From: Thermospira aquatica
GTDB taxonomy: Bacteria; Spirochaetota; Brevinematia; Brevinematales; Thermospiraceae
Reading direction: 5' to 3'
Assembly (NCBI RefSeq): GCF_023525255.1
Contig: NZ_CP073355.1
Coordinates: 372,001-436,000, forward strand
DNA length: 64,000 nt
Each line of letters begins with the position of its first letter. Position 1 is the first letter of the stretch. Below the pieces are notes generated by a model that made no database searches, had not been told where the DNA came from, and worked only from the letters and a program-made list of their open reading frames with translations. Both the position numbers and the translations under genes were made by a program. Positions 36,066 to 63,867 of the stretch are shown in pieces.

Positions 36066-36125
36066 GGAATTGGGGTGGCGATGTTTGAAGGAGACCTATT
36101 TACAGGGAAACGGCAAAACAATATC

Positions 36126-37304: not shown

Positions 37305-37415
37305 GTACTTTTTTTTATGAGGCAATGATTCGAATTTCGAGTACTTTTTTATTTGACGCAACGGGTAGACAGCCTCCTGCCTCGGTTACCCAAAAGAGCT
37401 TTGCATCCTCCATCT

Positions 37416-45414: not shown

Positions 45415-45417
45415 CGC

Positions 45418-46203: not shown

Positions 46204-46220
46204 AAGTTCCTCCTATTCCT

Positions 46221-46925: not shown

Positions 46926-46988
46926 CTTTCAATCCGCTTTTTGTCTTCTAAATTATAGCTTCACTACTTCCAAATTGGTACTGCTGAT

Positions 46989-47858: not shown

Positions 47859-49738
47859 TTTTTCTTACCTCCTTCTTTTGCCCTGAAATTAGATATCTTT
47901 TTCCAGAAATCTTCCAATTTTTCTTTCAAAGTGTATTCTTTGATATAAAGGTATGCCTTCCCTAACTGTATTTTCTGTACAGCCTCCCAGTTCAAGAAAT
48001 ATACTCCCTTCTTATCGTATTCCTTGTCTCTACTGTTGATATTGTATTTCCAACCCTCCGCGTCCGGCTCCTCATACTCACCGAACGGGTCCTGAACAAC
48101 TATTCCATCATCCCTTACTTCCAGTAATTTAACAATATGCCCCATATAATGAACCGTTCCATCCCACTTTAGCCGTCGGAAGCTGCCCAAGAGAAGCACT
48201 TTGTCCTTATCACCCATATAGTTCCATAATTCCTTATAATGCGTTTTAATTAATTCCATTGAATGACTGTTAGTTCCGTATATCCCCTGAATTTCACCAA
48301 TGACTTTATTGAGATCATACTCTTTTTCTTTATCTTTCAAAGCTGGATCATCGGTATTTTTATAGAACCAGCTCCAGAAATCCTTGCCGCCCTTAACATA
48401 GGGTTCAACCTTTCCGCTTAAAACAGCCAGCTTATATAATGTGGCAAATGAGCCTCTATAGTCATTCTTATACATATTCTGCCGTGCCATTTCTATGTAA
48501 TCCGCCGCAGTCATGTCCTCCCGTTTCGCTCCCTTCACCAAAGAAAGCTTTCCACCGCTCTTGCCGTTATAGACGTCCTTCACATTGATGCCCATCTCTA
48601 CTAGCGCCATCGCAAGCGAGGTCTCATTGCACATTACGCCGCCAAGCGCGCCTTTAGAACCATCTCCTTTAATACCATAAGACTTATTATATTTCTGGTT
48701 GATGTACTCAATATCAATTTCTTTTCCCTCTGCGTTTGTGTATTTTATCTTCAAATCACTCCCGCTTTCCCATTCAAAATCGCTTAAATCACCCGAACTG
48801 ACCGCGTAAGCCAACAGCTTAGATACAGACGAGTACTCGCTATCATTCTTATACAAATCTATTCCGACATTTTCTCTTATGCCTTCCAGTACTCTTGTCT
48901 GCATTCCGCTTGCGCCAAGTTCACGAATATATGCGATTAATCTATCATTTCCCGCTAAAGCTGTTCCTCCAAGGAAGCCTTCCCTTGCCAAAACAGAGGC
49001 GTAAAAAGCAATCTTTTCCGCTGAACCGCCGTCAAGTTTTAAAGCGTCTTTATTAAGCCTTATTGTATTTCCTTCTGACTGCCCATAGTGATTTTCATCA
49101 TCCAGGTCAAAAGTTACATTCATTTCGCCATTGATTACCTTCATCACCACTTCAGCAGCGGCTTTATCTCTACTCAGCATTGCCATATTTACATAGCTTA
49201 TCCTCGATAAGCCCTCGTCTCCTCCGTGAACATTCTTATACTGAAAACCTACATAGTTTAAACTACCTATCGCATCCACAAGGTTGACAAGCCCAATCCC
49301 TCCGCTCGTATCATTTACTATCTGCCCCTCGTGGGTGAATCCTATCCCTACATCACTCGCAAGGCTTATCCTGAAATTCCCTCCCCACGCATAATGCACT
49401 GCTTCCCCTGCTATACTCCCTATCGTGTTCGCAAAGTTGTTAAGCTTCATCTCATAAAATAGTGATACATTGTTAGTCAACGCCTCGCTCGATATCCTGT
49501 CTATAAATGATAAATTGCCATCCGTGTATCTCCCTCCAAGTTCACCTCCAACCCACCCGGCAACAAAGCCACTCGCAAATCCCATCGTCGTACTTTTCAG
49601 TAAATTATTCCAGTCATATGAATCCCATTGCCATTGCCCATTACTTATGCTATAGCACTTCGTAAACGCCATCAAACCTCCACTTATAAACCCTTCCGTC
49701 ATCTTCTGCATACCAAATGCCGCAGCTGTACTGAACCA
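47855..49738 (-). CDS. Core plus C39-like cysteine-peptidase toxin, intact frame
   Basis: The first ATG is at 49711, and the frame is open to 49738, where R2 begins. The core ends with VLAREGFLGGTALAGNDRLI at about residue 240, where other cores have HEGFH. The junction is FEWESGSDLKIKYTNAEGKE (about 325). The payload has VMCNETSLAMALVEMGINVK (about 360) and GHIVKLLEVRDDGIVVQDPF (about 525), a Cys-His-Asp arrangement of C39/papain-like type. It is coupled to the lipoprotein gene 46989-47858. The frameshifted twin is 9927-11800. Confidence 0.82.
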   Translation of the reverse strand, partial: WFSTAAAFGMQKMTEGFISGGLMAFTKCYSISNGQWQWDSYDWNNLLKSTTMGFASGFVAGWVGGELGGRYTDGNLSFIDRISSEALTNNVSLFYEMKLNNFANTIGSIAGEAVHYAWGGNFRISLASDVGIGFTHEGQIVNDTSGGIGLVNLVDAIGSLNYVGFQYKNVHGGDEGLSRISYVNMAMLSRDKAAAEVVMKVINGEMNVTFDLDDENHYGQSEGNTIRLNKDALKLDGGSAEKIAFYASVLAREGFLGGTALAGNDRLIAYIRELGASGMQTRVLEGIRENVGIDLYKNDSEYSSVSKLLAYAVSSGDLSDFEWESGSDLKIKYTNAEGKEIDIEYINQKYNKSYGIKGDGSKGALGGVMCNETSLAMALVEMGINVKDVYNGKSGGKLSLVKGAKREDMTAADYIEMARQNMYKNDYRGSFATLYKLAVLSGKVEPYVKGGKDFWSWFYKNTDDPALKDKEKEYDLNKVIGEIQGIYGTNSHSMELIKTHYKELWNYMGDKDKVLLLGSFRRLKWDGTVHYMGHIVKLLEVRDDGIVVQDPFGEYEEPDAEGWKYNINSRDKEYDKKGVYFLNWEAVQKIQLGKAYLYIKEYTLKEKLEDFWKKISNFRAKEGGKKK

Positions 49739-49740
49739 GC

Positions 49741-49884
49741 CTCTACCTTAATCACTATAAAAATTATACAGCAAAACCTTGCTCTTGTAAAATAGATGAT
49801 ATAAAATCAACAGGCAAGGTCGCTCGGCCTCCTGCCTCGCTTGCTTCAGTGGAATGCCTGTGAAAGTATGCTTCTTATGCTTCG
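49741..49884. repeat. R2 border repeat, copy 3
   Basis: It starts TCTACCTTAATCACTATAAA at the point where the core frame is lost and ends near GTGAAAGTATGCTTCTTATG, as in copy 1. The 90 bp after it (49885-49975) hold no gene I can support. Confidence 0.75.
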
Positions 49885-49975
49885 TTGCTTTATGGCTTTG
49901 TTCTTACACATAAGCACTATGTTAACAATTTCATAAATCCATCGCTTAGAATTATCGTAGAAGTGGATGAGGAGT

Positions 49976-50899
49976 TTAATACTCCTCCTCTAAATACACA
50001 TCCATTACCCAGCCTTTTATTGTATCTCCTTTTTTATCCTTTATCCCTGTATCTACATAAAGCCAGTATCCCTTCCTTCTTACACCATCTGAATTTTCTA
50101 TTTCATACCCAACAACTAACCAATCACTTATCTTTACCCTTGTCCCTCTCTTTAATTGAATTATCACTGCTGAATTAGTATCCGGCTTTTCAAGAAGATT
50201 AACATCGTCACCATATATATAGTAGTATCCCTCACGCTGTACCGGATTCTCATACTCCGCCCATTTCGGAAATTTATTCTTGTCGGTTATTACCTTTGTA
50301 CTATAAGCAAATGGAACTCGTAGTTTACCTTTTTCATCGTAATAGAATATATCAACATTATTACCTAACATGATTATATTTTTGAATTTATAAATTTTCC
50401 CTTTCAAACTTTTATTATCAACATTGTATACAAGATTTTTAGTTATTATCCTATAGGTACCATTTGAGTATATCCGATAATAAACAACTCCTCCTTCTTC
50501 ATCAAAGGCTTCTATGAACATTTCCTGTATCTTTTTTACCGGTTTAAAATCGTTCTTACCAGCTAAATGCCTTCTCTCAGTCCAACCTTGGATTGTTAAA
50601 ACTTTCCAACCATTATCAGTTAGAACCATCTCCTGATTACTACTCATTCCAGAATCAATATAGAACCACTCAGTAACATTTGAATTACTTGCCATTATAA
50701 TATTCGTCTTACCTAAAATATTAACACATTGAAGATAAGGTAACTGCATTAGTTTCATTGAGTTAGCACTTGGCTGTTCAAATAATTCCACTTCTCTATC
50801 TATAACATAAACCGAATTACTTCCAAAAGGTTTTATTTCAATTGAATAAACACCATTAGAAATGACACATATTACCAGTATGAATAATAAAGAGCGCAT
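49976..50899 (-). CDS. Secreted protein with two SH3-like domains, probable immunity for M15-like toxin
   Basis: MRSLLFILVICVISNGVYS is a signal peptide without a lipobox. An N-terminal SH3-like unit (YVIDREVELFEQPSANSMKL ... IQGWTERRHLAG) and a C-terminal one (YIYGDDVNLLEKPDTNSAVI ... GYWLYVDTGIKDKKG, KGWVMDVYL) flank a beta-rich middle. It follows the LAS peptidase 50905-51285 with only a few bases between. The relative at 59773-60933 adds one more SH3 unit. Confidence 0.83.
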   Translation of the reverse strand: MRSLLFILVICVISNGVYSIEIKPFGSNSVYVIDREVELFEQPSANSMKLMQLPYLQCVNILGKTNIIMASNSNVTEWFYIDSGMSSNQEMVLTDNGWKVLTIQGWTERRHLAGKNDFKPVKKIQEMFIEAFDEEGGVVYYRIYSNGTYRIITKNLVYNVDNKSLKGKIYKFKNIIMLGNNVDIFYYDEKGKLRVPFAYSTKVITDKNKFPKWAEYENPVQREGYYYIYGDDVNLLEKPDTNSAVIIQLKRGTRVKISDWLVVGYEIENSDGVRRKGYWLYVDTGIKDKKGDTIKGWVMDVYLEEEY

Positions 50900-50904
50900 T
50901 TAAA

Positions 50905-51285
50905 TTACCTCCTAATAGTTAAGTGTAGATGATGTCTATGTTTATACATAAAATTATACCTCTTTTTAGACAAATTTCCGTTTGGATATCCTTGTTGCCA
51001 AACATTTGGTTGATTATATGTGTTACCTGGTATTTTACTTTTCACCCACCACGGATCCAGCGCCTGACTTACTCTTTGGTCATTTACCATACTGTTGTAC
51101 ACTTCATTTCTTAACGCCATCGCAGCTTGTGATTGTGGCCCTACAGTCGAATTATTAAACCTTACTGTTAAATTACCCCTTGTTACAGCTACAATATCTA
51201 TCCCTCTTCCCGACCCATGTGGGCTTGTGGTGCTATTCCTCCACAGGCTTGATACCTGAATACTATCCACATTCACGCTCCTCAC
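50905..51285 (-). CDS. Small M15/LAS-like metallopeptidase, probable cell-wall toxin
   Basis: The 126 residues include SLWRNSTTSPHGSGRGIDI and the terminal HRHHLHLTI. This H-x-G-x-G-x-D plus H-x-H layout is that of M15/VanY-like LAS peptidases, in a minimal domain. The likely start is the GTG at 51285, which overlaps the stop of the upstream small gene (GTGA), giving coupling. With promoter 51551-51579 and the SH3 gene downstream it forms a three-gene operon. A paralogue lies at 60943-61326. Confidence 0.78.
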   Translation of the reverse strand: MRSVNVDSIQVSSLWRNSTTSPHGSGRGIDIVAVTRGNLTVRFNNSTVGPQSQAAMALRNEVYNSMVNDQRVSQALDPWWVKSKIPGNTYNQPNVWQQGYPNGNLSKKRYNFMYKHRHHLHLTIRR

Positions 51286-51494
51286 TGACTACTTCTATCC
51301 AGAACCATCCCCATCCAACCTACGTCATGCATAACACCCTCCAGAAATGTCCCACTAAAGTCTTTAAAATACGGCGTCTTTTCCCACTCTTTACTCCCTC
51401 GTGGTCTTACCATAAGCCCATACACCACACCTCCAGCTACTGCAAACTTTCTCACACCCTTCTTCAAGGCTTCTTCATACTCTTTCCACATCAT
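51282..51494 (-). CDS. Small leader protein of the M15-toxin operon, related to the tail of discoidin-type immunity proteins
   Basis: The 70 residues have a mildly hydrophobic stretch (VRKFAVAGGVVYGLMV), then SKEWEKTPYFKDFSGTFLEG. The second half resembles the C-terminal tail of 58569-59582 (KQWEKTTDFRHFSGTFLEG). GGAGG precedes ATG 51494, and a consensus promoter lies 57 bp further upstream. The stop overlaps the next start. It may be an immunity remnant captured at the operon head, or a genuine small protein. A near-identical copy is at 61323-61535. Confidence 0.6.
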   Translation of the reverse strand: MMWKEYEEALKKGVRKFAVAGGVVYGLMVRPRGSKEWEKTPYFKDFSGTFLEGVMHDVGWMGMVLDRSSQ

Positions 51495-51600: not shown

Positions 51601-52769
51601 GCTGTTTCCTTGTTGCAGTGTAAGAAGGGACGCTTGTTGCTATTACCTTATCGCAGTACAAAAAACTCCAGCTATTACCATATTGCAGTTAATGCGTGAA
51701 ACCCGAAAGTTATTCCCTTGTTGCAGTGGAAAACAGCAATGCTCTTACCTTTTCACAGTCAAAACGAGAAAATTTATTCCCTTATCGCAGTTGGTCTTTC
51801 CCCGGTAGCTCTTTCTTTATTGCAGTTGAGAAGCAGGAAATTTTTTAGCTATTACCCTGTCGCAGTCGGAAGAGGAACCTCTGGCTATTACCTTGTTGCA
51901 GTGAACTGGAGGGAATTAAGAGCTCTTCCCGTGTTGCAGGAGAAAAAAAATCTTTTGCTATTACCATGTTGCAGTTTGGAGTTCAAGACTTAAAAGCTTT
52001 TTCACTATTGCAGTGGTGGATGAAGAGGAGTCTTTTTGCTCTTCCCATATTGCAGTCAAAACGTACACCGTGAAAGCCCTTCCCTTGTTGCAGTGGCAAT
52101 CGAGGGAGAAGCTCTTACCCTATCACAGTTTTACACTCCGCGCTCACACTGCAAAAAAGTAATAGCTCATGTTGAAAATTCCAGAGTCACCATCTCCCCG
52201 GATTTTGCTTATCCTCCTCAAAACTTGCTATTCCCTTATCACAGTCTAAGATGAAGGGGCACCCGAAAAGTTCAACAAAGAAAAAAGATCTTCCTTTATC
52301 ACAGCCACAACAAAAATATCCTTGCCCTCTTTCTCTGTCACAGCTAAAAACGCTTCCGGTACTCTTCCCATGTCGCAGTAAAAAGTACAGGATCGCTCGT
52401 TTTTCCTTGTTACGGGAAAAATTCTAGCTATTACCTTGTTGCAGTACAAAAAACTCTAGCTCTTACCTTGTTGCAGTTAAAAATCACCAGTGTGATGGCT
52501 ATTCCCTTATCGCAGTTAAAAAGACTGCCATGCTCTTCCCTTGTTACAGTGTGTCTGTCATGCGGGCTATTACCATGTTGCAGCGAATATGTGGGTTTTC
52601 ATAGCTATTTCTTTGTTACAGTGAATGACTGGATTTTGATAGCTCTTACCGTGTCGCAGGAGAAATAGGGGAATGGGTAGGCTCTTACCCTATCGCAGTG
52701 AAAAATTCTCCCCTGCTATTCCCTTACCGCAGTAAAAACTTCAGACCAAAACTGCAACAAAGGAAGAGC
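51601..52769. repeat. Degenerate 19-bp repeat array 1 (about 30 units)
   Basis: The unit is GCTMTTMCCNTRTYGCAGT. Clear units start at 51601, 51639, 51671, 51709, 51741, 51773, 51808, 51848, 51884, 51922, 51957, 51996, 52038, 52076, 52111, 52227, 52287, 52361, 52427, 52459, 52498, 52532, 52566, 52604, 52642, 52681 and 52715. Inverted units are at 52148 and 52751. Start-to-start spacing is usually 32-42 bp. Intervening sequences are dissimilar. Most variation falls at fixed positions: 4 and 7 (A/C), 10 (any base), 12 (A/G), 14 (T/C) and 15 (G/A). No gene is supported in this stretch. Confidence 0.9.
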
Positions 52770-52804: not shown

Positions 52805-53101
52805 CTACCCTTCCCCTTCCTTCCGCACCACCTGGGGTGGCAGATGTATCTCCCCAAACTGCTCTTCATACTTCTTCACTCTTTCCATAAGCCCCATCAT
52901 AAATAACTTCGCATTCCTCGGACTTAATGCAATACGACTAAATATCTCTATCCCCTCCTTCCCCGGCGTTATGTTCCCAAAGTCAAACAAAAACTCCTCA
53001 CTACTGCTATGGAAAAACACCACATTCGCATAGGCAAGTCCAACTACCGAGGAAGCAAACACTACCCTCTCCACTTCCTCTCCCGATTTTCTTCTCATCA
53101 C
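52805..53101 (-). CDS. DUF3467 family protein
   Basis: YANVVFFHSSSEEFLFDFGN followed by ITPGKEGIEIFSRIALSPRN and VKKYEEQFGEI is the characteristic run of DUF3467, a small widespread bacterial family of unknown function. Length (98 residues) fits the family. Its ATG overlaps the stop of the upstream gene (53098-53101), so the two are probably co-translated. It lies just outside repeat array 1 and does not look like a toxin or immunity protein. Confidence 0.8.
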   Translation of the reverse strand: MMRRKSGEEVERVVFASSVVGLAYANVVFFHSSSEEFLFDFGNITPGKEGIEIFSRIALSPRNAKLFMMGLMERVKKYEEQFGEIHLPPQVVRKEGEG

Positions 53102-53967
53102 TCTCCTCCATCCATCGAAATATCAAAATACGCCTTCAAAAACCGTCGTATCACCGAATGGTTGGTCCCATTCACAGGCTCATAGGTGTAAACTAAGTAC
53201 AGATCCTCCGGCCTTTCTTTCAGCTGGATAATCGCTATCTCTATCTCTTTCGGAGAAGAGGCGTTAAAAAACGCAAACCTCATCAGCTCATACTCCTTAT
53301 AAAGTTGTTCAAGAAAGCGCATAAGAGAGGGGAGGGAAAAATTCCCGTTTTGGATAAGGGCGAGTTTGCCTCCGCTTATAATAAACTCATCCATTTTCCC
53401 ATACACAAACCTCATACGGTAGTGCTTCCCCTCCCTTGTCCAATCCTCTATCACCACCGCCTCCGAAAAACCTACATCTAATTTCCTCGCCTTAACAGGA
53501 TAAATGGAAGGATTCCTTTCTACAAAATAGCTCCCCCAATCACTTTTAACAGTACGAGAAAAAGCAAAAGCTAACCCTTTGCCGGCATCTCCTATCTCCG
53601 TCATGAGAATATCAGGATGAAAACTCCTCGGAAAGCACAACCACTCTACAAACCCCTCTCTTTGAGGGTCATGTAAGAGAAGGGCATAATACCCACCTTT
53701 TAGCGCAGCTCCACTAAAAACTTTGGTAAAATTAGTGACCCTATCGAAATCTATCCCCACCTCCCTCAATACTGCCTCTTCCATTTGCCCTATTTTCCCA
53801 TCATAGGTTCCGTATCTATAAAATCTTGAACCTATCGTAAAAGCACCATAAACAAGAGGGAGAAACTCATAGACCACTATTATCACTATTAAAAGAAAGA
53901 ATACCTTTAACGTTGTTACTACACACTTCCCTGCTTTTCTGAGTTTTTGTCTCGTCTCCCATCGCAT
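53098..53967 (-). CDS. Membrane-anchored protein of unknown function
   Basis: One N-terminal membrane helix (VFFLLIVIIVVYEFLPLVYG, about residues 23-45) is followed by a soluble domain of about 240 residues with no motif I can name. The topology suggests a periplasmic body. It is co-translated with the DUF3467 gene. It could be another anchored immunity protein, but there is no neighbouring payload that would support this. Confidence 0.65.
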   Translation of the reverse strand: MRWETRQKLRKAGKCVVTTLKVFFLLIVIIVVYEFLPLVYGAFTIGSRFYRYGTYDGKIGQMEEAVLREVGIDFDRVTNFTKVFSGAALKGGYYALLLHDPQREGFVEWLCFPRSFHPDILMTEIGDAGKGLAFAFSRTVKSDWGSYFVERNPSIYPVKARKLDVGFSEAVVIEDWTREGKHYRMRFVYGKMDEFIISGGKLALIQNGNFSLPSLMRFLEQLYKEYELMRFAFFNASSPKEIEIAIIQLKERPEDLYLVYTYEPVNGTNHSVIRRFLKAYFDISMDGGE

Positions 53968-53982
53968 AGTCTCTTTTCCTCC

Positions 53983-54288
53983 CTATTGACTAAGATCGTA
54001 GAGACCATATTTGTAGCCATTTTGCAAATAATCCCGATAACTCACTATCCCACCCCCTATCATAAGTACGCCAGCATAGGTACATGCAACACCAGGCTTT
54101 GCCAGTACACCACTCCCAGACATAGCTACACCTGCTCCTACCAACAATACTCCTGCCCCAACGGTTCCTACCACTATCCCAGTTCTTTTCATCGTTTCAG
54201 GATTCAAAGAGTATCCAACACGTATCCCATCTGTAACCTCCAGTTTGCCATCTTTACTTTCCACTTTCCAACACTTCTGCCAAGCCAT
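53983..54288 (-). CDS. Small protein with glycine-rich hydrophobic segment
   Basis: The 101 residues have a charged start (MAWQKCWKVESKDGKLEVTD) and a glycine/valine-rich hydrophobic centre (RTGIVVGTVGAGVLLVGAGV ... GVLMIGGGIV) that could span a membrane as a hairpin. No ribosome site better than weak is seen. It follows the immunity-like gene 54298-54585. I do not recognise it; a hydrophobic toxin fragment or a structural piece of the cassette are both possible. Confidence 0.5.
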   Translation of the reverse strand: MAWQKCWKVESKDGKLEVTDGIRVGYSLNPETMKRTGIVVGTVGAGVLLVGAGVAMSGSGVLAKPGVACTYAGVLMIGGGIVSYRDYLQNGYKYGLYDLSQ

Positions 54289-54297
54289 TTTAAGCTT

Positions 54298-54585
54298 TTA
54301 CCTACACGGCTTTGTTGGTAAAATAAAAATATCACCTTCTATCAGCAACCCTTTTTCTAATAATAAATTAAATTGTTCTCTTTCCATCGTTAATACTAAA
54401 TACTTTTGGTCAATCCCTTCTTTTTTTCTCGCTGTACCAAAACCAACAATTTTAATACTAAATGTTCTTTTGTCAACTTCCAGAATATACTGACCCAACT
54501 CTATTTTCTCATTGAAACTATAATTAGCAAGCACTTGATTCTTTTCCCTAATTATAAATAAACTATCAATTCTTAATCTTTTCAT
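54298..54585 (-). CDS. Small cytoplasmic protein, probable immunity for zincin toxin
   Basis: The 95-residue protein without signal peptide has alternating strands (QYILEVDKRTFSIKIVGFGT). It lies 11 bp downstream of the HEYMH-containing toxin 54597-55148, in immunity position, with a GGGGAAGAG ribosome site. The family is not recognised. Its lack of an export signal suggests that the partner toxin would act in the cytoplasm. Confidence 0.6.
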   Translation of the reverse strand: MKRLRIDSLFIIREKNQVLANYSFNEKIELGQYILEVDKRTFSIKIVGFGTARKKEGIDQKYLVLTMEREQFNLLLEKGLLIEGDIFILPTKPCR

Positions 54586-54596
54586 CTCTTCCCCTT

Positions 54597-55148
54597 CTAC
54601 TTTGGAGTTATATTAAACAACTTCTGATGCCTATTTAAGAAAGATTCAATTATAGTATCTTCTCCTATCCTTGGATTTTTCCACTTGTTCTGGAACATAT
54701 AATGCATATATTCGTGCATAATATCCCATTTGGTAGCATCTTTTGTGTAAGTAATTACTGATTTTCCATTTTCCATCAGTATATGAGAGGCTCGTGCACC
54801 TTGATAATTAAGATATGTAAGCATATCCCCCGATGCTTCTTCAACAATTAAGTTAGGACGTAATTTTAACATGAAAATAATTTCATCTCTTGTAGCCACT
54901 TTACCAACTGTCGATGCTGTTTTAACTAACCTCGTAGGAGACTTCACCCCCGAGACTACCTTCATGCTCTTTACAACACCAATACCAATCGTTGCCAATA
55001 CAAATACCTCTTCTCCAGCCCTCTCCCAATCCACACCACCTCTCTGAGTTCCCCACACGTATCGAATGGCAGCTGGTAGACCATGCTCATAGCTATATTC
55101 AAGCTCCTTAGGCCTTTTAATCATGATTCTTTTCTCCAACTTTCTCAA
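54597..55148 (-). CDS. Zincin-like metallopeptidase toxin with short pre-toxin region
   Basis: Residues 30-90 (TQRGGVDWERAGEEVFVLAT ... VKSMKVVSGVKSPTRLVKTA) match the pre-toxin part of 57339-57890. The C-terminal domain has TKDATKWDIMHEYMHYMFQN, an HExxH zinc site near residue 143, as in zincin-like polymorphic-toxin domains. The N-terminus (MRKLEKRIMIKRPKELEYSY) lacks the lipoprotein signal that its relative has, so export is uncertain. It is paired with 54298-54585. Confidence 0.75.
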   Translation of the reverse strand: MRKLEKRIMIKRPKELEYSYEHGLPAAIRYVWGTQRGGVDWERAGEEVFVLATIGIGVVKSMKVVSGVKSPTRLVKTASTVGKVATRDEIIFMLKLRPNLIVEEASGDMLTYLNYQGARASHILMENGKSVITYTKDATKWDIMHEYMHYMFQNKWKNPRIGEDTIIESFLNRHQKLFNITPK

Positions 55149-55253
55149 GGTACCCCAAACTCTTCTAAAGCTAATTCCTTAGCAATTAATAAGGTGGGTT
55201 CTAAATAATTTTTAACACATTTCCTCTCCTTAAATAAACATATAAATTGAAGC

Positions 55254-55325
55254 CTATTCCGGCTTGTCTTCTTCGATAACAAATACCATCCCATTAAAAT
55301 TAATTATTAACTTTCTATATTTCAT
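55254..55325 (-). pseudogene. 23-codon remnant of an immunity gene
   Basis: After the decayed toxin, AAGGAGAATG precedes ATG 55325 and the frame reads MKYRKLIINFNGMVFVIEED-KPE before a stop at 55254. The position and ribosome site are those of an immunity gene start. The rest of 55149-55253 shows no continued frame, so the gene appears truncated. Confidence 0.4.
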
Positions 55326-55341
55326 AAACATTCTCCTTATG

Positions 55342-55660
55342 TTAATATTCTGGGTAAATTCTATGAACATCTGTAACATTTTTCCACTTCCCATTTTTTC
55401 AAAATGAATATACGCTTTATCTCCATGCAGATTTTCAACATTAAACCGTACTCCTATATTGTCTGCCTTCTCAGATTCATATCACCACTTTTATTGTAAT
55501 ATATTTGAGCATCTTTTTCAACCCCCTTTCCTAAATTATCTGTAATGTTGTCAACTCTACTCCCCCTCCGTGCGGAGAACGCCTGCTCACCGTTTTGACC
55601 ATCCATTGTATTATATAACAAGCGTAGGGCTTCGGTAGTCAACTTGAAAAAAGCCCTCAA
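55342..55660 (-). pseudogene. Decayed toxin C-terminus with HxH motif
   Basis: Reading across two frameshifts (near 55461 and 55385) gives KGVEKDAQIYYNKSGDMNLR, then NIGVRFNVENLHGDKAYIHF-EKMGSGK and a tail NVTDVHRIYPEY ending at 55342. The HGDKAYIHFEK segment recalls small polymorphic-toxin domains with an HxH motif, but I cannot name the family. The 5' part (MDGQNGEQAFSARRGSRVDN) is linker-like. It is followed by the immunity remnant 55254-55325. Confidence 0.5.
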
Positions 55661-55685
55661 TATGCGAAGGAAGTGTACCCTCCAA

Positions 55686-55745
55686 GAAGCTTTGTTTTCC
55701 TCTTTTTAACCTTCAAGACTAAAGAAAAGAGGAAAGAAGCTTTCT
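55686..55745. terminator. Imperfect A/T-rich hairpin between cassettes
   Basis: AAGCTTTGTTTTCCTCTTT on the left and AAAGAAAAGAGGAAAGAAGC on the right are near-complementary with a loop of about 15 bases. It lies between an immunity gene (55825-56145, transcribed leftward) and the decayed toxin, so it may act as a terminator on either strand. The stem is imperfect and no U-tract decides the direction. Confidence 0.35.
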
Positions 55746-55824
55746 TTAGCCTATGGACTTTCAAATTGTCTGCTCACTAAGTAGCCAACAAAAGCCCCTT
55801 AGTTTTATTCTACAGGGCTTTGAT

Positions 55825-56145
55825 TTAATCACCAACTGCTATTATTAACTTTCCTTGCGATAACGCTGATTCACATAGTTTTTTTAACTCTAACATAAAT
55901 TTTCCTATTTCATTACCTTTATCAATCGCTTTAAATTCTAAAGTAAGACCAAGTAAATCCTTAATTTCCTGCTCTGAATATATTTTATCATTATAAGGAT
56001 CTAGTTCAGTAATTAGGTTTATTGCTTCTGGAAAATTATTCTTGTTCTTCACAAGATAGTTAAATATCTCTTCTGTAATTTCAATATACTCCTTTGATTT
56101 TGCAGCCTCATTTAAGTCATTCGCTACGTATAAATTTATTCCCAT
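55825..56145 (-). CDS. Small cytoplasmic immunity-like protein
   Basis: The 106 residues begin MGINLYVANDLNEAAKSKEY-IEITEEIFNYLV and lack a signal peptide. They look like small acidic immunity proteins of polymorphic toxins. The gene lies directly downstream of the payload remnant 56159-56389, with GGAGGATAGGG before its ATG. Family not named. Confidence 0.68.
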   Translation of the reverse strand: MGINLYVANDLNEAAKSKEYIEITEEIFNYLVKNKNNFPEAINLITELDPYNDKIYSEQEIKDLLGLTLEFKAIDKGNEIGKFMLELKKLCESALSQGKLIIAVGD

Positions 56146-56158
56146 TTTCCCTATCCTC

Positions 56159-56389
56159 CTACTTTAGAAATGCTGTTATAACATTACCATTTTCATCTAT
56201 TACAACCCTCATCGTTTTCAGAGGACTTCCCTTCCCGTCAATGCCTATGACACTATCAAAAGTTTTCTCAAATATATAGCCACTTCTACCAAGAGTATTC
56301 GGTAATACCAATGAATCAGCACTTTTCAATGCCGTATCAATACCCTTCTTGATATCAAAACCATCAACAAACTTGCTTTTTCCAACTTA
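56159..56389 (-). pseudogene. C-terminal remnant of a polymorphic toxin (RNase-type, BECR-like pattern)
   Basis: No start codon is available; the frame is open from 56389 (after TAA) to the stop at 56159-56161. The 76 residues include GFDIKKGIDTALKSADSLVL, PNTLGRSGYIFEKTFDSVIG and MRVVIDENGNVITAFLK. The last part resembles the end of many Rhs/CDI RNase toxins (xVVxDENGxVITAFP). The domain is truncated at its 5' end, which joins unrelated DNA at 56390. Its immunity gene 55825-56145 is intact. Confidence 0.6.
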
Positions 56390-56428
56390 GCGCCGCGGGT
56401 TATTTACCAGCAAAAGGTTTATATGGTC

Positions 56429-56803
56429 TTATTTTGATAAATATGTTATCAACTCACTTTCAATCTTGCTAAGCAACTTAGAATTATCATCAAATATTGC
56501 ATATAAAAGATCAGGTTTGCTGCCAGACAAAAATATGAAGTATTCACTTACTTCAGTTATACTCTCTTCTTTAAACCAGGTTGTTACAATATCCCATAAC
56601 TCCTTTTCAATTATAAGGTCATCAGTATAATCATGAGCTAACTCTGAAAACTCACCAACAAAACAAATTTCTTTACAATTAGGAGTTAATAAAATATTGA
56701 TAATCCGTTTATCATTTGTTTCTTCGATGCTAATATTAGATTCGTATAAAACAGTATAAGGTTCCGTGCTTAAAATTGTTCTTTCATCAAAATCAAAGTC
56801 TCT
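56429..56803 (-). pseudogene. Immunity-like gene lacking its start codon
   Basis: A clean 124-codon frame ends at 56429-56431 and reads DFDERTILSTEPYTVLYESN ... NILLTPNCKEICFVGEFSEL ... IFDDNSKLLSKIESELITYL. Its acidic composition and length suit an immunity protein. In-frame TAG lies at 56804-56806 with no ATG, GTG or TTG near the natural start, so the 5' end has probably mutated. No partner toxin remains upstream, only the core relic 56850-57065. Confidence 0.5.
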
Positions 56804-56849
56804 CTATTTTTTGCCTATATTATTCCCCTTTTCTTATTTTTTCAATGTT

Positions 56850-57065
56850 ATTCTTAAAGTATTTTTTCTTTTTTAATTCCAATTTATTCTTTTGTTACTT
56901 GTAGATTCTTCCTTCTCCTTTGTCTATTATTCTTACCTACTCTTCCCCTCAAATCTTAATCACTTACCCATTTACCCCTTCTTTTTAAACCACTCTTGAT
57001 ATTGTTTCCAATCATCTCATACTTATTCCCCTTTTTCTTTTTCAAATCCGCTTTTGTCTTCCCTG
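56850..57065 (-). pseudogene. Eroded relic of a core/junction segment
   Basis: The DNA is a much decayed version of 8826-9004. Matching pieces in the same order are TTGTTACTTGTAGAT, CTCATACTTATTCCC and AAATCCGCTTTTGTCTTC. No frame survives, and the LDMSGRS region is reduced to scattered matches. It shows that a cassette border like those at 8.9 and 46.9 kb once existed here. Confidence 0.45.
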
Positions 57066-57068
57066 AAA

Positions 57069-57326
57069 TTATATTTTTCTATATTCTGCTAATGAAATAA
57101 TATTTCTGTAATCATTATTAGCCTCATTAACATATTTCTTTAGTAAATCTATATTTCCATTTGCCAGTTTTAAAATACTAGCATATAAGCGATATTTGCC
57201 TCTTTCCGATTCTGAATTATACCCTTCTAAGATACTAAGTATGCATTCAATATCGTAATCCTTAAATTCTCTCTTTATAATTCTTATAATATCAGATTTA
57301 GTGATATGAGGGATTTTTTGTTTCAT
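57069..57326 (-). CDS. Small cytoplasmic immunity-like protein
   Basis: The 85-residue, helix-rich protein (ITKSDIIRIIKREFKDYDIE, LYASILKLANGNIDLLKKYV) has no signal peptide. It lies 12 bp downstream of the lipoprotein-type toxin 57339-57890, the immunity position. I do not recognise the family. Confidence 0.62.
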   Translation of the reverse strand: MKQKIPHITKSDIIRIIKREFKDYDIECILSILEGYNSESERGKYRLYASILKLANGNIDLLKKYVNEANNDYRNIISLAEYRKI

Positions 57327-57338
57327 ATACCAATAACC

Positions 57339-57890
57339 TCATTTATGTAATTGTTTTACCATTTTAGTAAAATCAGATGTCCACCTATACCCATGACTTT
57401 CCAAATAATATATTTCTTTCGCCAATACAGAACTTGGGTCTAGTAAACTAGGATCATACTTACCTGCAAAAATCACTTCATCTCCACGCTTTACTATTTC
57501 CTGAAGATGCCTCTCATTTTTAGCCCATGTCCAAGCTTCATCTGTTACATCTAAAAATTCTGCCCCTATATTCTTTGCAAATTCTCTATATGTACTTCTT
57601 GGCCCAATAACTGATTTACCCTCCGTCGATGCGGCTTTAACTACCCTCGTAATAGACTTCCCACCCGAAACTACCTTCGTGCCTTTTACAGCCCCAATAC
57701 CAATGGTTGCCACTCCAAATGCCTCTTCTCCAGCCCTCTCCCAATCCACAGGACCTCTCTGAGTTCCCAATACGGTTCGAATGGCATAATGGCTAAAGCC
57801 TAATCTCCCTCGCTGCTCTGGAACTATCACAGCAGTCCTTGCCACACAACCTACTACTAAAAAACACAATACCCAAACCCCTTTCTTCAT
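57339..57890 (-). CDS. Lipoprotein-anchored short polymorphic toxin
   Basis: MKKGVWVLCFLVVGCVARTA is a lipoprotein signal. Residues 40-95 (LGTQRGPVDWERAGEEAFGV ... VKGTKVVSGGKSITRVVKAA) are the pre-toxin region shared with 54597-55148. The C-terminal 85 residues (YREFAKNIGAEFLDVTDEAW ... DEVIFAGKYDPSLLDPSSVL) are the payload, with no motif I can assign. A complete small toxin with its own export signal contrasts with the long core proteins. The partner is 57069-57326. Confidence 0.7.
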   Translation of the reverse strand: MKKGVWVLCFLVVGCVARTAVIVPEQRGRLGFSHYAIRTVLGTQRGPVDWERAGEEAFGVATIGIGAVKGTKVVSGGKSITRVVKAASTEGKSVIGPRSTYREFAKNIGAEFLDVTDEAWTWAKNERHLQEIVKRGDEVIFAGKYDPSLLDPSSVLAKEIYYLESHGYRWTSDFTKMVKQLHK

Positions 57891-57955
57891 TTCCCCATCC
57901 TTTTCTAAAATTTTCTCCCTCTCCCCGGATATTTCCAGGGAGAGGGGAATGGTAT

Positions 57956-58513
57956 TTAATCTTCGAGTTTAAACTTCCAGGCTGCGTTTACCACCTTGAG
58001 ATCCTTTGCCTCGGGAATATCCCGATACAACATATCCAGATCCTCTTTCATCGTGTCAGTCGAAACGATGTCGTAGGTTATCCAGTAAGAATCATCCTTG
58101 GTATAACCACTTTGATGAAATCGAACATAGCCAAGATAGGTGATCGTATTCTCCTTCACCTCAAACTCGTAACCAACAGGGAAAGACCGAGCCCCGCTAT
58201 CTCCCCCACTCACACCCCATTCCTCGATAGCGTACGTCCCTGGTTTCACCCGATAGAAATAGTACCCCTTGGTCGACGATGTAGCTCCTATCGAAAAAGG
58301 CTTTTCACCGTTTGCTGACAGCGGTAAAATCTGGAGATTCATCATCAGGTTAAACGAGGTGTTTTCCCTGATAAGCTCACGCGTCCCATAAAGATAGCCC
58401 CAGGGACCACCAGCCTCTTGTTTCAAAAAGGTCTCCCGTGTCAGGCTCTCCTTACACCCCATCGTCACCAACACAAACAACACCATACTTACCCATGCGA
58501 TACATCTCTTCAT
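57956..58513 (-). CDS. Lipoprotein of unknown function, possibly orphan immunity
   Basis: ATG 58513 (GGAGG upstream) starts the lipobox signal MKRCIAWVSMVLFVLVTMGC. The mature part of about 165 residues is beta-rich (GYYFYRVKPGTYAIEEWGVS, YEFEVKENTITYLGYVRF), like a DUF2846-type or carboxypeptidase-regulatory-like fold that formats a G-x-Y strand. No toxin precedes it; the upstream gene is another immunity-type protein, so if it is immunity it is an orphan. Confidence 0.6.
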   Translation of the reverse strand: MKRCIAWVSMVLFVLVTMGCKESLTRETFLKQEAGGPWGYLYGTRELIRENTSFNLMMNLQILPLSANGEKPFSIGATSSTKGYYFYRVKPGTYAIEEWGVSGGDSGARSFPVGYEFEVKENTITYLGYVRFHQSGYTKDDSYWITYDIVSTDTMKEDLDMLYRDIPEAKDLKVVNAAWKFKLED

Positions 58514-58568
58514 CTTTTCCTCCATTTTTTATATATTTTATGGTCTTATCTCTTTTTGTGCCTCATCA

Positions 58569-59582
58569 TCAATGCCCTGGATGACCCATTTCCAGTATCT
58601 CGTCCATCCCATCCTCCTCATCATACTCAATACCCTCCAGAAAGGTACCAGAAAAGTGCCTGAAATCGGTCGTTTTCTCCCACTGTTTCCCCCCCAGAGG
58701 CTTCACCATGAGTTCAGAAAACTCTGAAAGCTTCCAGTCACCTATCCTGTTCGCTACCGCTCTATTCATCTTTACTCTGCCTGTTTTGGGATCTCGTATC
58801 GTGAAATCCTCCCCACTGTAGTCTTTTCTTGTCTTGCGGTAGACGTAGATCCCCCCATCCCTCCTATCAAACTCAATGATATCCACATCATGGGTGATCC
58901 CCATCTTCTTGAGACTCCCGGCAAACCGACTGCTGGGATCATAAGAGATAAAATGGGGCACGTAGGCAGGGATTCGGGCAAGAAAACGATCTTTGTACAC
59001 CTCGAGAAAATTCTTCTTATCCTCTTCGAGAACAACTACATCGTATTTTTTACCCTGGTAAAAGAATTCTATCTCACTTATACACGTATCATCATATCGG
59101 GTTCCAGGATAGGTGGAGAGCACTTCAAAAAAGAGCCACTGAATCTTTACAGCTCTTCCCAACTTTATTTCTTGAGGTCCCCACTCATCTTTTAATGGAA
59201 ACACTTCTTCCTTGATCACATATTCATCCTCATTTTCTCCCTCCTTTTCTACATAGAAAGCTCCTGTTATACCAATGTTTTTTACCCTGTTGTTAGCCAG
59301 ATACACATTTGTATTCTTTTGATACCCATTGTAAATCACTATAGTGTCAATAAAAAAGGGTTCTCTAAATACTATTCGAAAATAAGGAGGGACATCAGGC
59401 GTTGTGTAGTTGGTGTTTACAGCTACACAGGTAGAGAGGTTTTTGTCTAACGCCAGATAAGGAAAATAGGGGGGTACCACCGCCTGCCAGGCATTCTCTC
59501 TATTCGTTCCATCTAGGCGTATCTGCCCATACGCTACCGTCATCCCCAAGATGAACCATACTATCACAAGAAACCGTTTCAT
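58569..59582 (-). CDS. Secreted discoidin-like protein, probable immunity for L,D-transpeptidase-like toxin
   Basis: MKRFLVIVWFILGMTVAYG is a signal peptide. The discoidin-like half has ALDKNLSTCVAVN, IVIYNGYQKNTNVYLANNRV and LSTYPGTRYDDTCISEIEFF, as in 17575-18585 and 27460-28515. The C-terminal half differs, apart from the WEKTTDFRHFSGTFLEG tail. AAAGGAGGAAG precedes its ATG. The upstream neighbour is the scrap 59596-59766, which keeps the HGCQTI motif of the same payload type, so the pairing is preserved even though the toxin is almost gone. Confidence 0.82.
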   Translation of the reverse strand: MKRFLVIVWFILGMTVAYGQIRLDGTNRENAWQAVVPPYFPYLALDKNLSTCVAVNTNYTTPDVPPYFRIVFREPFFIDTIVIYNGYQKNTNVYLANNRVKNIGITGAFYVEKEGENEDEYVIKEEVFPLKDEWGPQEIKLGRAVKIQWLFFEVLSTYPGTRYDDTCISEIEFFYQGKKYDVVVLEEDKKNFLEVYKDRFLARIPAYVPHFISYDPSSRFAGSLKKMGITHDVDIIEFDRRDGGIYVYRKTRKDYSGEDFTIRDPKTGRVKMNRAVANRIGDWKLSEFSELMVKPLGGKQWEKTTDFRHFSGTFLEGIEYDEEDGMDEILEMGHPGH

Positions 59583-59595
59583 ATTCTTCCTCCTT

Positions 59596-59766
59596 TTATT
59601 GGGTTACTATGAAACTGCGCCCTTCTTTACCATACACATCTTGAGCAAACCTCCAATCATTCCCTGACTCCTCCGCCCCAAACAGCTCGGCGAATTCTTC
59701 AAAGTCGGGGAAGTAAATGGTCTGACAGCCGTGAGACCAGTTCCACTGGGAGGTATGAGAAACCAT
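59596..59766 (-). pseudogene. 56-residue remnant of an L,D-transpeptidase-like toxin
   Basis: This short frame starts at ATG 59766, seven bases after the previous stop, and reads SHTSQWNWSHGCQTIYFPDF, then EEFAELFGAEESGNDWRF and a tail RSFIVTQ ending at 59596. WSHGCQTIYF matches WSKGCQTIYG of 18615-22258 and 28533-29921, the candidate catalytic cysteine segment. The rest of the domain, including the upstream histidine, is missing. Confidence 0.7.
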
Positions 59767-59772
59767 CGCTTG

Positions 59773-60933
59773 CTACTCCTCCTCATCCAGATATATATCC
59801 ACCATCCAGCCTTTAATAGGTTTACCCTTCTTATCCTTAACGCCAGTGTCTATGTATACCCAATTACCCGTCCTGTCCCCAATCGTAAAAGTAACGTCCG
59901 ACCGTTCGAGTAGCTTTACCCTTGCGCCCTTCTTTAGCTTTAGCAATACAGCCGAGTTTGTAGAAGCTTCGGAACGCACGTTTACATTGTCGCCGGTGAG
60001 AATGTAATATATTTCAGGACTTAAATATAAATCTAGTACCCAGCCCTTTATGGTATTACCCTCCTTATCCTTTACGCCCGTGTCTATATATACCCAATAG
60101 CCTGTCCTGTCTCCAATGATTGTAATCTCCGTCCTCTCCAGAAATTTTACCCTTGTACCCTTCTTTAGCTTGAATAGTACAGCTGAGTTTGTAGATGCTT
60201 TGGTACGTACGTTTACATTGTCGCCGGTGAGAATGTAGTATGTTTCAAGTACAGGCGCTTTATCCGATTGTGCCCATTTGGGGAATTTGGATTTGTCTGT
60301 GAGGACTTCAGTTTCCCAAGTGCTACCACCTTTTAATTGTTCTTCATCATCATAGTAAAATAAATTTGCCACCTCTCCTGTTTTTCCCGTTAATAGTATC
60401 ACATTTCTATATCTATAAATGTTGCCCGTTAAGTGAATTCTTACTAGTTCACTGTAATAAAATTTTTCTTCTGTTCTAATTTTATATGTTCCGTTCGAGT
60501 AAATACGATAATAGACAGGCGGACCATCTACTTCATGGCAGGTAATAAACATTTCCTGTATCTTTTTTACTGGTTTAAAATCTCCCCATCCCGCAAGATC
60601 CTCCCTCTGAACCCAGCCTTTGAGAGTGGGATACTCCCACCCTCTTTCAGTTTTAATCATCTTTGCTTCGTGAGGAATTCTTCTTGAATCCACATAATAC
60701 CATATCTGATTTGTTCCTGAATAATTGATATTGGTCTTTGTAATAATAGCTACATCCTGAAGAAAGGGTAAGATTTCAATTAAACCTGAATCTATATTTG
60801 GTTCTTTATACAATATTGCTCCCTCAGTTATTACTATAGCACCATTGGTTCCAAAAAATTGTAATTCACTCGGTTCTGAATAAACTTTCTGTATATTTAA
60901 TATTATCATTATCAATATAATAAAATATTTCAT
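59773..60933 (-). CDS. Secreted protein with three SH3-like domains, probable immunity for M15-like toxin
   Basis: A signal peptide (MKYFIILIMIILNIQKVYS) is followed by an N-terminal SH3-like unit and a beta-rich middle homologous to 49976-50899. Two nearly identical C-terminal SH3 units follow, at about 240-305 and 308-384, each with YYILTGDNVNVR, STNSAVL, LKKG and YIDTGVKDK. The tandem copies are recent, differing by a few residues. It follows the LAS peptidase 60943-61326. The extra unit suggests that SH3 number can change. Confidence 0.84.
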   Translation of the reverse strand: MKYFIILIMIILNIQKVYSEPSELQFFGTNGAIVITEGAILYKEPNIDSGLIEILPFLQDVAIITKTNINYSGTNQIWYYVDSRRIPHEAKMIKTERGWEYPTLKGWVQREDLAGWGDFKPVKKIQEMFITCHEVDGPPVYYRIYSNGTYKIRTEEKFYYSELVRIHLTGNIYRYRNVILLTGKTGEVANLFYYDDEEQLKGGSTWETEVLTDKSKFPKWAQSDKAPVLETYYILTGDNVNVRTKASTNSAVLFKLKKGTRVKFLERTEITIIGDRTGYWVYIDTGVKDKEGNTIKGWVLDLYLSPEIYYILTGDNVNVRSEASTNSAVLLKLKKGARVKLLERSDVTFTIGDRTGNWVYIDTGVKDKKGKPIKGWMVDIYLDEEE

Positions 60934-60942
60934 TTTATCCTC

Positions 60943-61326
60943 CTATTGCCTCCATATAGTAATATGAAGGTGATTGTTATGTGCAATCATCAGTCGGTAG
61001 AATTTTGAATTCACATTTTGTTGCTTAGGTTGATTCCAGATATTTGGTTCATCGTAATAATTATTAGGGTCTCTGCTAAGCATTCTTGAAGGATTCAACA
61101 CTTGCGATACTCTTGGGTCATTATAGAAAGCGGTATAAACTTCTTCTATAAATTCAGTATTTTGATCATACTGATTGGCATATGCCGGAGTGTTATTAAA
61201 CCTTACCGTTACACCATCCCTTGTTGCAGCCACAATATCTATCCCTCTTCCCGACCCATGAGGGCTTGTGGTGCTATTCCTCCACAGGCTTGATACCTGA
61301 ATACTATCCACATTCACGCTCCTCAC
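60943..61326 (-). CDS. Small M15/LAS-like metallopeptidase, probable cell-wall toxin
   Basis: The first 33 residues (RSVNVDSIQVSSLWRNSTTS-PHGSGRGIDI) are identical to 50905-51285 apart from one change. The middle (NNTPAYANQYDQNTEFIEEV) diverges, and the C-terminus has HNNHLHITI. H, D and HxH of the LAS zinc site are present. The start is the GTG at 61326, overlapping the stop of 61323-61535. The operon layout equals that at 49976-51494. Confidence 0.78.
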   Translation of the reverse strand: MRSVNVDSIQVSSLWRNSTTSPHGSGRGIDIVAATRDGVTVRFNNTPAYANQYDQNTEFIEEVYTAFYNDPRVSQVLNPSRMLSRDPNNYYDEPNIWNQPKQQNVNSKFYRLMIAHNNHLHITIWRQ

Positions 61327-61535
61327 TGACTACTTCTATCCAGAACCATCCCCATCCAACCTACGTCATGCATAACACCCTCCAGAAATGTCCCACTAAA
61401 GTCTTTAAAATACGGCGTCTTTTCCCACTCTTTACTCTCTCGTGGTCTTACCATAAGCCCATACACCACACCTCCAGCTACTGCAAACTTTCTCACACCA
61501 CGCTTCAGTGCTTCTTCATACTCTTTCCACTTCAT
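61323..61535 (-). CDS. Small leader protein of the second M15-toxin operon
   Basis: The 70 residues are almost identical to 51282-51494 (KEYEEALKRGVRKFAVAGGV ... FKDFSGTFLEG), with the same GGAGG and the same overlap with the next start. High conservation between two otherwise diverging operons suggests either recent duplication of this end or a retained function. Confidence 0.6.
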   Translation of the reverse strand: MKWKEYEEALKRGVRKFAVAGGVVYGLMVRPRESKEWEKTPYFKDFSGTFLEGVMHDVGWMGMVLDRSSQ

Positions 61536-61620: not shown

Positions 61621-61629
61621 TGGGCCGAA

Positions 61630-61898
61630 TTGCTTCATAATAAAAGTACTCGAAAAGGGAACGTTGCTTCAAAATAAAAAAGTACTTTAAATTTGTGTAA
61701 AATAATCCAGTTCATGGCTCGACAAGCTCGCCAACCGGAATTGGGTTGGCGATGTTTGAAAGGAGACCTATTTACAGGGAAACGGCGAAATGATATGCTG
61801 AGCTTGTCGAAGCAGAGTATCAAAAAACCAGCAAAAAGGAGAAAAAGGAGATACTGGATTACTTTGTGAGGATAACAGGTTTAAAAAATCGAAACTAT
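61630..61898 (+). mobile_element. DDE/rve-type insertion sequence, copy 4 (left end only)
   Basis: It starts TTGCTTCATAATAAAAGTAC, carries one 23-bp minisatellite unit (61713-61737) and the first codons of the transposase (YFVRITGLKNRNYAA), then stops matching at about 61898. More than 1.1 kb of the element is missing. It lies immediately upstream (minus-strand sense) of the promoter 61592-61620. Confidence 0.82.
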
Positions 61899-61989
61899 GC
61901 CGCGACATTCCTCAAAAATAATCTACGTGAAAGTATGTTGTTTCCTTATAAGTGAAAAAAGGTTGAATACTGGTGTGAGATAGACAGTT

Positions 61990-62537
61990 GCTATTACCTT
62001 TCCGCGGTGAGAAAAAACGGAGGGGGCTATTACCATGTCACAGTAAAAAGTAAAGGGTCGCTCGTTTTTCCTTGTTAAGGAGAAAACTTTAGCTATTACC
62101 TTTTTGCAATGAGAATCAAAAATACAAAAGCTATTTCCTTATCACAGGAAAAAAACTTGCTCTTCCCTTATTGCAGTATGGACTCGGGAGACAAAAGCTC
62201 TTCCCTTATTGCAGGGAAAAAGGAGAGGGTATATGAGCTATTCCCTTATCGCAGTGAGAACACTTGCTATTACCGTGTTGCAGTCTGGAAACCTGGCAGC
62301 TATTCCCATATTGCAGTGAAAGCGTAAAACATAAAAGCTCTTCCCTTTTTCCAGCGGAAACGAAATGCCCATGAGCTATTACCTTTTCGCAGTCTGAAAA
62401 CAATTTTAGCTCTTACCATAGTACAGTTAATGCGAGGGACATAAAAGCTCTTTCCCTGTTACAGTGGCAACCAAGGGACAAGCTCTTCCCGTATCACAGT
62501 TTTATACTCTGCGTTCACACTGCAACAAGGTAAGAGC
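61990..62537. repeat. Degenerate 19-bp repeat array 2 (about 15 units)
   Basis: Units start at 61990, 62026, 62092, 62130, 62159, 62197, 62237, 62266, 62299, 62337, 62374, 62409, 62447 and 62482 on the plus strand, with an inverted unit at 62519. Start-to-start spacing is mostly 29-41 bp. Parts are homologous to array 1 including the spacers: the GTCGCTCGTTTTTCCTTGTT stretch near 62058, and the end with TGCGTTCACACTGCAACAAG against CGCGCTCACACTGCAAAAAA. The same positions vary as in array 1. Confidence 0.9.
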
Positions 62538-62665
62538 ATTTTTCTCAACCCCCAAAATCTCCCCATCGATCTTACTTTTAAAATATATAAAACATCTTTT
62601 TTAACAACTATAACAAAAAATTTTCGATATATATAGTATGAAAAAATTTCTCTAAGGAGAAAACC

Positions 62666-63451
62666 ATGGAAAAGGATTTTTTCACACTCTCAGAAAACAG
62701 GGCCTACCAGATCCTCGAAAAAGCCCTCTGGCCAGAGGGACCTATTGCCGGTGTAAGGCAAAGGCTCACCTTCTCGTGCCGGCTCGTGTATCAGTGTCCC
62801 AAGTGTGGCAGACAATTTTCCTTAAAAAGCCAGTCCATCATGCGAAAAAGTCACCTCTCGCCAAAAATCTGGCTTTCTGCCATGTTTCTTGTCTGCCAGG
62901 ATGGTGGCATAAACGCCGTCAAACTCTCGAAACTTCTTCATATTAGCTACAAGGCAAGCTGGCTTCTTCTTCAGAAGCTACGAAGCCTTATGCGGCCACT
63001 CGCCATCACACGAAATCCCTCCGAAAGCTTGTCAAAACCTTTTTCTTTCTCTCCGGCATCAAACGCCGCCAAAGAAAAAACTTTTCTCCCATGCAGGTTG
63101 TCGAAATTGATGCGGATGATACCCCTTCTAAACTTCACATTCATCTTGTGGATGATGTGAGTATTGGCTTTCAGACTTTTTGGCAAGCTTTTCCGCCACA
63201 CGCCCGTAGAAAAAAGAACGCCGTGGCTTTCCCACCTTAACGATGGGTTGAAAAACCTTCTTGAAGACGTCTATCACTATGGTTGTCGAAAGCACATGCA
63301 GCGCTATCTTGATGAATTCTGTTTTCGGTTTAACATCGAGGGGGTTTCTTCCAGGCTTGAAGAGCTTTTAAGAAGGCTTGGCAAACGTCGCCAGCTTCTC
63401 CCGTGGAAAAAGCTTGTTGCTGAAGGGCTTATTCTTCCCATCTGGGCGTAG
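62666..63451 (+). pseudogene. IS1595/ISXO2-like transposase, frame-broken
   Basis: 62666-63160 begins at ATG after TAAGGAG and has a zinc ribbon (YQCPKCGRQFSLKSQSIM), then LSPKIWLSAMFLVCQDGGIN and ASWLLLQKLR, typical of the IS1595 N-terminus. The core continues in another frame (MQVVEIDADDTPSKLHIHLV, candidate first catalytic Asp). 63164-63451 has the C-terminal HMQRYLDEFCFRFN segment of this family. Frameshifts and an apparent loss of core sequence make it inactive. No terminal repeats were identified. It sits between repeat arrays 2 and 3. Confidence 0.75.
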
Positions 63452-63629
63452 GTTTTCGTTTTTTCTTTCTCAACACATTTCCTGCGTCTGTCAAATAGAA
63501 AACTAAAAGTTTTTGTTTCATTTTGTTTTTTTGAATTTTTTTCATCCTTTTGAAAGAAAAGGACAGGAAAAACTCGAAAATTCATGGTGAAAACGTTTTT
63601 TTCGTGAGGTAAAAGATGAAAAAACATAT

Positions 63630-63867
63630 GCTATTACCTTGTTGCAGTTTTTAGCACCTTATACCCCATAGTATGGTGACGGCTTTCCTGCGATAAGGTA
63701 AGAGCAATTTTGGCAAATCTCGCGTTAAACGTTTAACTTGAGTTTCTCTTCCACACTCTTGAGTGAAAAGACATTTGATCTTACCTTCTTACAGCTAAAA
63801 ACTGTTTTTTTAGCTCTTCCCTTGTTATAGTGAAAAACCTGGCCGGAAACTGCAAAAAGGAAATAGC
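63630..63867. repeat. Degenerate 19-bp repeat array 3 (five units)
   Basis: Units occur at 63630 (plus), 63687 (minus), 63777 (plus), 63813 (plus) and 63849 (minus). They are wider apart than in arrays 1 and 2 and of mixed orientation. The array may continue past the window. Nothing else is recognisable in 63452-64000. Confidence 0.75.

Follow-up and report, generated by a model that had tools for sequence, protein, structure and literature searches.

In REP/RAYT systems, short, mostly intergenic repeats that often form inverted pairs are dispersed through the genome and are cognate to a transposase-derived protein, the gene of which they border; these systems have been described as the first prokaryotic domesticated transposase tied to dispersed repeats (PMC8266576). 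The RAYTs are active HUH nucleases, and there is usually one such gene per genome. The insertion sequences of the IS1595 family, which with eukaryotic Merlin are another close counterpart, are described as characterized by a DDE motif and 8-bp target duplications (PMC8101967). The window analyzed here, a 64,000-nucleotide stretch of the Thermospira aquatica genome, contains two arrays of a short repeat unit that show likeness to both systems. From the sequence evidence presented below, we consider it probable that these are arrays of terminal inverted repeats (TIRs) which, together with a disarmed IS1595-derived protein that binds them, constitute a REP/RAYT-like partnership that would have originated from a DDE rather than from an HUH transposase.

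Array 2 (61990-62537) consists of 15 PWM-scored 19-nt units (GCTMTTMCCNTRTYRCAGT), 14 forward and one reverse. The units of its left part follow one another with a period of 29-40 nt, with a single 66-nt gap. This array adjoins a gene core of ~1.1 kb, the right end of which is another unit that is followed by a right-hand array. The features of the locus and of array 1 are as follows.

51601-52769, forward strand: array 1, with 30 units, 28 of these forward and two reverse (52148-52166 and 52751-52769), from the PWM scan.
61990-62500, forward strand: left array of the array-2 element, with 14 forward 19-nt units starting at 61990, 62026, 62092, 62130, 62159, 62197, 62237, 62266, 62299, 62337, 62375, 62409, 62447 and 62482, from the PWM scan and a repeat search.
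62516-63648, forward strand: the core, present in 16 genomic copies (88-100% identical), which extends from the leader, beginning at ATTTTTCTCAACCCCC, through the transposase-like ORF and the 3' region to the first right-hand unit.
62519-62537, reverse strand: inverted border unit ACTGCAACAAGGTAAGAGC, a match to IS1595-type TIRs, from the PWM scan, the end-signature search and the comparison with canonical TIRs.
62666-63451, forward strand: gene for the IS1595-derived protein (Pfam), frameshifted in the window copy (ORFs 62666-63160 and 63164-63451).
63630-63867, forward strand: right array, with units at 63630 (forward), 63687 (reverse), 63777 (forward), 63813 (forward) and 63849 (reverse), from the PWM scan.

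The outermost unit of the right array faces inward. Arrays flank the core on both sides in all 16 genomic copies; in the copy at 1558-1562 kb, a 2.1-kb insertion separates the core from the left array. Thirteen other copies of the gene in this genome are intact (about 266 aa).

The original prediction held that the two arrays are partly homologous, that both finish with one inverted unit followed by a common sequence, and that this asymmetric end suggests a structure with a definite layout, not a scatter of repeats. The shared spacers are readily identified (label 63, at 52380-52426 and 62045-62091; label 25, at 52130-52147 and 62501-62518). The homology of the 62450-62537 segment to array 1 also holds, although its counterpart, 52081-52166, lies at an internal inverted unit of array 1, not at the terminal one. 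Similarly, the inverted unit and the common sequence that follows it are real, but the array does not terminate there: with ATTTTTCTC begins the leader of the transposase-like gene core, and the 'GC' of GCATTTTTCTC is part of the inverted unit. The end signature (the inverted last unit plus ATTTTTCTC, with at most 3 mismatches) was found at 18 places in the genome, compared to none for the control; the structure is indeed a defined one. At 15 of these places, it is immediately followed by a conserved leader (mostly AACCCCCAAAATCTCC) and then by the ~266-aa ORF, intact or broken, whereas the remaining three, at 424751 (array 1), 576670 and 637881, lack the gene. The asymmetric end is recurrent, but what it marks is the border between an array and the IS1595-derived gene, beyond which lies the second array. 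Array 1 represents a gene-less relic that retains ~35 nt of the core border at its end. Arrays without an inverted terminal unit were to count against the original prediction, and several such arrays were found, for example, the one at 887814-888219, with its ten units all in the forward orientation; the inverted end is thus not universal.

Exact matches to the unit consensus number 264 across the genome (2.5 Mb), compared to 0 for the same pattern read backwards. The PWM, applied to 592 kb of stretches around arrays, identified 761 units (14 in the reversed control), which form about 80 clusters of at least two units. In addition to the 16 core copies, there are about 45 gene-less arrays, array 1 included. 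The units are located mostly outside ORFs (138 of 708 inside, against an ORF coverage of 81%). Replication-oriented sites were ruled out as an identity for the units, which occur on both strands throughout, and a plasmid or phage origin was rejected, with no match found. A known RNA was likewise dismissed, given that Rfam returned no match. Database scans with a two-unit pattern yielded no match outside this genome because the sequence of the unit differs between species.

When the arrays are aligned unit by unit, as the original prediction proposed, shared blocks appear in preserved order, with gains, losses and joins at unit boundaries, so that the arrays are mosaics. The 666 inter-unit gaps cluster into 343 types; the gene-proximal block is largely alike in about nine elements, and the outer units vary. 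Neighboring spacers are alike in 0 of 337 cases, and therefore, the arrays in this genome have not grown by slippage or local tandem duplication. Array 2 and its gene belong to a ~5-kb duplication, the other copy of which is at 1341-1346 kb (97.7%), and a portion appears again at 101-103 kb. Eukaryotic Foldback elements have inverted ends that consist of long arrays of short repeats, and the bacterial arrays described here may be likened to these.

Other repeats occur in the same surroundings. A fragment (61626-61903) of a different insertion sequence of ~1.44 kb, which is present in many copies, lies to the left of array 2 and is truncated at 61903; full copies adjoin several arrays (genome positions 437062-438530, 36075-37515 and others). 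Two arrays are split by copies of a 2.1-kb sequence (at 1241.7-1243.9 kb and 1558.6-1560.8 kb), which are 98-100% identical where their ends were compared; in one case, the split falls within the inverted border unit. In window segments 42748-51494 and 52805-61535, clusters of large genes with a secreted look recur, and segments near the arrays are duplicated, among them the ~5-kb duplication with array 2; by impression, these clusters resemble polymorphic-toxin cassettes. A 23-bp tandem repeat, TGGCTCGACARGCTCGCCAACCG, is found at window positions 34528-34596 and 35976-36063, and a similar sequence appears once near 61713-61750.

The protein encoded in the core is homologous to the IS1595 transposases. 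Pfam detects the zinc ribbon (Zn_ribbon_IS1595, PF12760) above the cut-off, with E = 3.5e-10, and a partial match to the end of the transposase domain (DDE_Tnp_IS1595, PF12762) just below it, with 7e-5; the NCBIfam IS1595 model (NF033547) gives 2e-17, below the curated cut-off. Thus, both the zinc ribbon and the transposase homology typical of the family are present. However, all three positions of the catalytic DDE/N triad are lost: in an alignment with canonical relatives, which show VDDxF, TDG and ISNAK, the protein has no catalytic D, D or N at the expected places. The protein retains the zinc ribbon, a helix-turn-helix region (YKxAWLLLxK) and a C-terminal KHxQRYxDEF motif. A fold search of the PDB with the AF2 model, which is confident (pLDDT 86.6), yielded nothing stronger than a faint similarity to retroviral integrases, the best with E = 0.24. 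The closest Brevinematales proteins (L055:5056-5856 and the homologs in Brevinematales bacterium Ch60 and SKW221) share an E...HxH motif (IEC...FHIHL), absent from canonical members, within what is left of the catalytic domain. Among the 13 intact copies in this genome, dN/dS is 0.11 at a mean dS of 0.25, and 0.06 in the helix-turn-helix region; these values indicate that the gene copies are old and that the protein they encode is preserved by purifying selection.

The repeat unit, too, points to the IS1595 family. Canonical relatives carry a single pair of TIRs, such as CGTGGCTATCCCCTTAAC, with a motif that in several cases matches the array unit, and three of them (L102, L103 and L108) have in common a fuller motif, such as GCCTATCCCCTTAGCTCAGC; compared by eye, GCTATTACCTTRTTTCAGC of Ch60 and GCTMTTMCCYTRTYRCAGT of the present arrays represent variants of this motif. 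Judged by this similarity, the array units are copies of an IS1595-family TIR. The arrangement is different: instead of one TIR per end, the motif recurs many times on both sides of the gene, with arrays that reach 14 or more units per side.

The catalytic residues are missing in groups of related proteins from Brevinematales, Paenibacillus and Desulfobulbaceae; in the tree, each of the three disarmed groups is a supported clade, with Brevinematales apart from Paenibacillus and Desulfobulbaceae. In Ch60, a sister species from the same genus, the proteins are 41-45% identical and the unit is changed, ending in CAGC; the layout around the genes is > 65 > 67 > 35 < gene > 65 > 34 <, and 339 units with at most 2 mismatches are dispersed in the genome (control, 0), many of these as > 34 < pairs. 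SKW221, another sister species of that genus, has one copy of the gene with a single pair of units on each side. Its second paralog, 36% identical, is flanked by > 70 < pairs of a unit of its own, ATGYTCTCTCCTTTTYTCA; this unit is present in 33 copies in the genome (control, 0). The disarmed genes of Paenibacillus are bounded on both sides by CACTMTCCCNTTNNNTCAG ends in inverted orientation (25 matches, compared to 4.3 expected). There are 299 dispersed units in P. profundus (control, 1) and 118 in Paenibacillus sp. MAHUQ-63 (control, 0), but just 10 in a Paenibacillus alvei genome. MAHUQ-63 also contains gene-less head-to-head TIR-like arrays (L176-L183), such as >>>>>>>>>>>><<<<<<<, with up to 21 units at regular periods of 41-53 bp; unlike in the Thermospira arrays, the spacers are alike, as read directly in one array. 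The disarmed genes of Desulfobulbaceae are seemingly single-copy and located downstream of a conserved regulator-like gene. In 7 of 12 cases, a near-perfect hairpin is located between the upstream gene and the disarmed gene (L168:2658-2710, L131:2572-2617, L141:2576-2617, L142:2573-2618, L130, L160 and L164), in a nearly constant place and with a sequence that differs in each genome. The possibility that this hairpin is a dispersed repeat was rejected in the one genome tested; from this and the seemingly single-copy state, the association with arrays is not universal among the catalytically dead relatives.

Signs of conventional transposition were sought at the array borders. In this genome, Ch60 and Paenibacillus, no consistent target duplication was detected above random pairing, and in particular no 8-bp duplication at the arrays, whereas a similar scan of canonical relatives recovered exact 8-bp duplications in four. 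The search for empty sites in the fetched regions recovered segmental duplications and other insertion sequences, but not the unoccupied site of a single array.

These observations bear directly on an alternative that we regard as unlikely but worth weighing closely, namely, that the locus is left over from ordinary MITEs, non-autonomous elements of the IS1595 family, which were mobilized in conventional DDE transposition by an active transposase that was later lost, leaving the proteins as decaying passengers and the arrays without a present function. This scenario is compatible with the identity of the unit as an IS1595 TIR, with the frameshifts in some gene copies, including the one in the window, and with the outcome of a search of the genus, which yielded no canonical IS1595 DDE domain and no DDE_Tnp_IS1595 match beyond disarmed-type proteins, and so no active partner. 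However, the low dN/dS of the intact copies is not the signature of decay, the same catalytic losses go together with intact ORFs across several species, Paenibacillus included, and target duplications, which a similar scan recovers in canonical relatives, were not found here. The gene-less copies, with inward-facing ends shared with gene-bearing copies, resemble MITEs; they differ in that each end is a series of TIR-length units, with mosaic spacers that arrays have in common.

It is considerably less probable that the IS1595-like gene simply inserts into arrays that were already chromosomal sites with an independent role, as nucleoid or regulatory binding sites. The many arrays without the gene, the other insertion sequences in or beside arrays and the avoidance of ORFs by the units would all fit such sites, but the unit is itself the TIR found in this transposase family and changes together with the protein between species, and the pairing of gene and unit recurs in another phylum. 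An identity as a CRISPR-like array or as a common minisatellite, suggested by regular short repeats with differing spacers, is hardly credible: in place of near-identical repeats with unique spacers of one length, there are degenerate repeats that face in either direction, the spacers are mostly 8-25 nt long and recur in order between arrays, there is no Rfam match, and the dissimilarity of adjacent spacers speaks against minisatellite slippage.

The arrays and the protein are best explained, as far as their sequences can tell, as working like REP/RAYT systems without belonging to them. As in those systems, dispersed, paired, cognate repeats border an associated transposase-derived gene, which is one of the features by which a REPtron is recognized; the protein, though, is IS1595-derived and not an HUH (Y1) nuclease related to IS200/IS605, so that disarmed DDE ancestry and 16 gene copies stand in place of an active nuclease that is usually encoded once. 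Under this REP/RAYT-like scenario, tandem TIR copies of an IS1595-family element would flank the gene for the disarmed protein or spread without it; the protein would bind its cognate units, several at once, and the two would persist jointly. The past dispersal could have involved an active IS1595 transposase acting in trans or some activity of the disarmed protein, and the later reshuffling of the arrays may have occurred by recombination at the 19-nt units. What counts against this explanation is that a catalytically dead protein does not account for 16 copies and ~45 further arrays at different sites. The failure to find an empty site or a target duplication, the situation in Desulfobulbaceae and the small number of units in P. 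alvei count against it as well. A bolder version, which we put forward only tentatively and consider somewhat doubtful, is that the disarmed IS1595-type clades of two or more phyla are a second kind of REPtron, in which a non-cleaving DDE-derived protein maintains, and perhaps disseminates, its own TIR arrays without target duplication or the DDE triad.

If the REP/RAYT-like interpretation is true, a DDE-derived case in two phyla, with protein-specific repeats, would imply that the REP/RAYT type of partnership evolved more than once, and the function of such repeats would become testable in culturable Paenibacillus. It would also account for a type of repeat array that is conspicuous in genomes yet carries no label.
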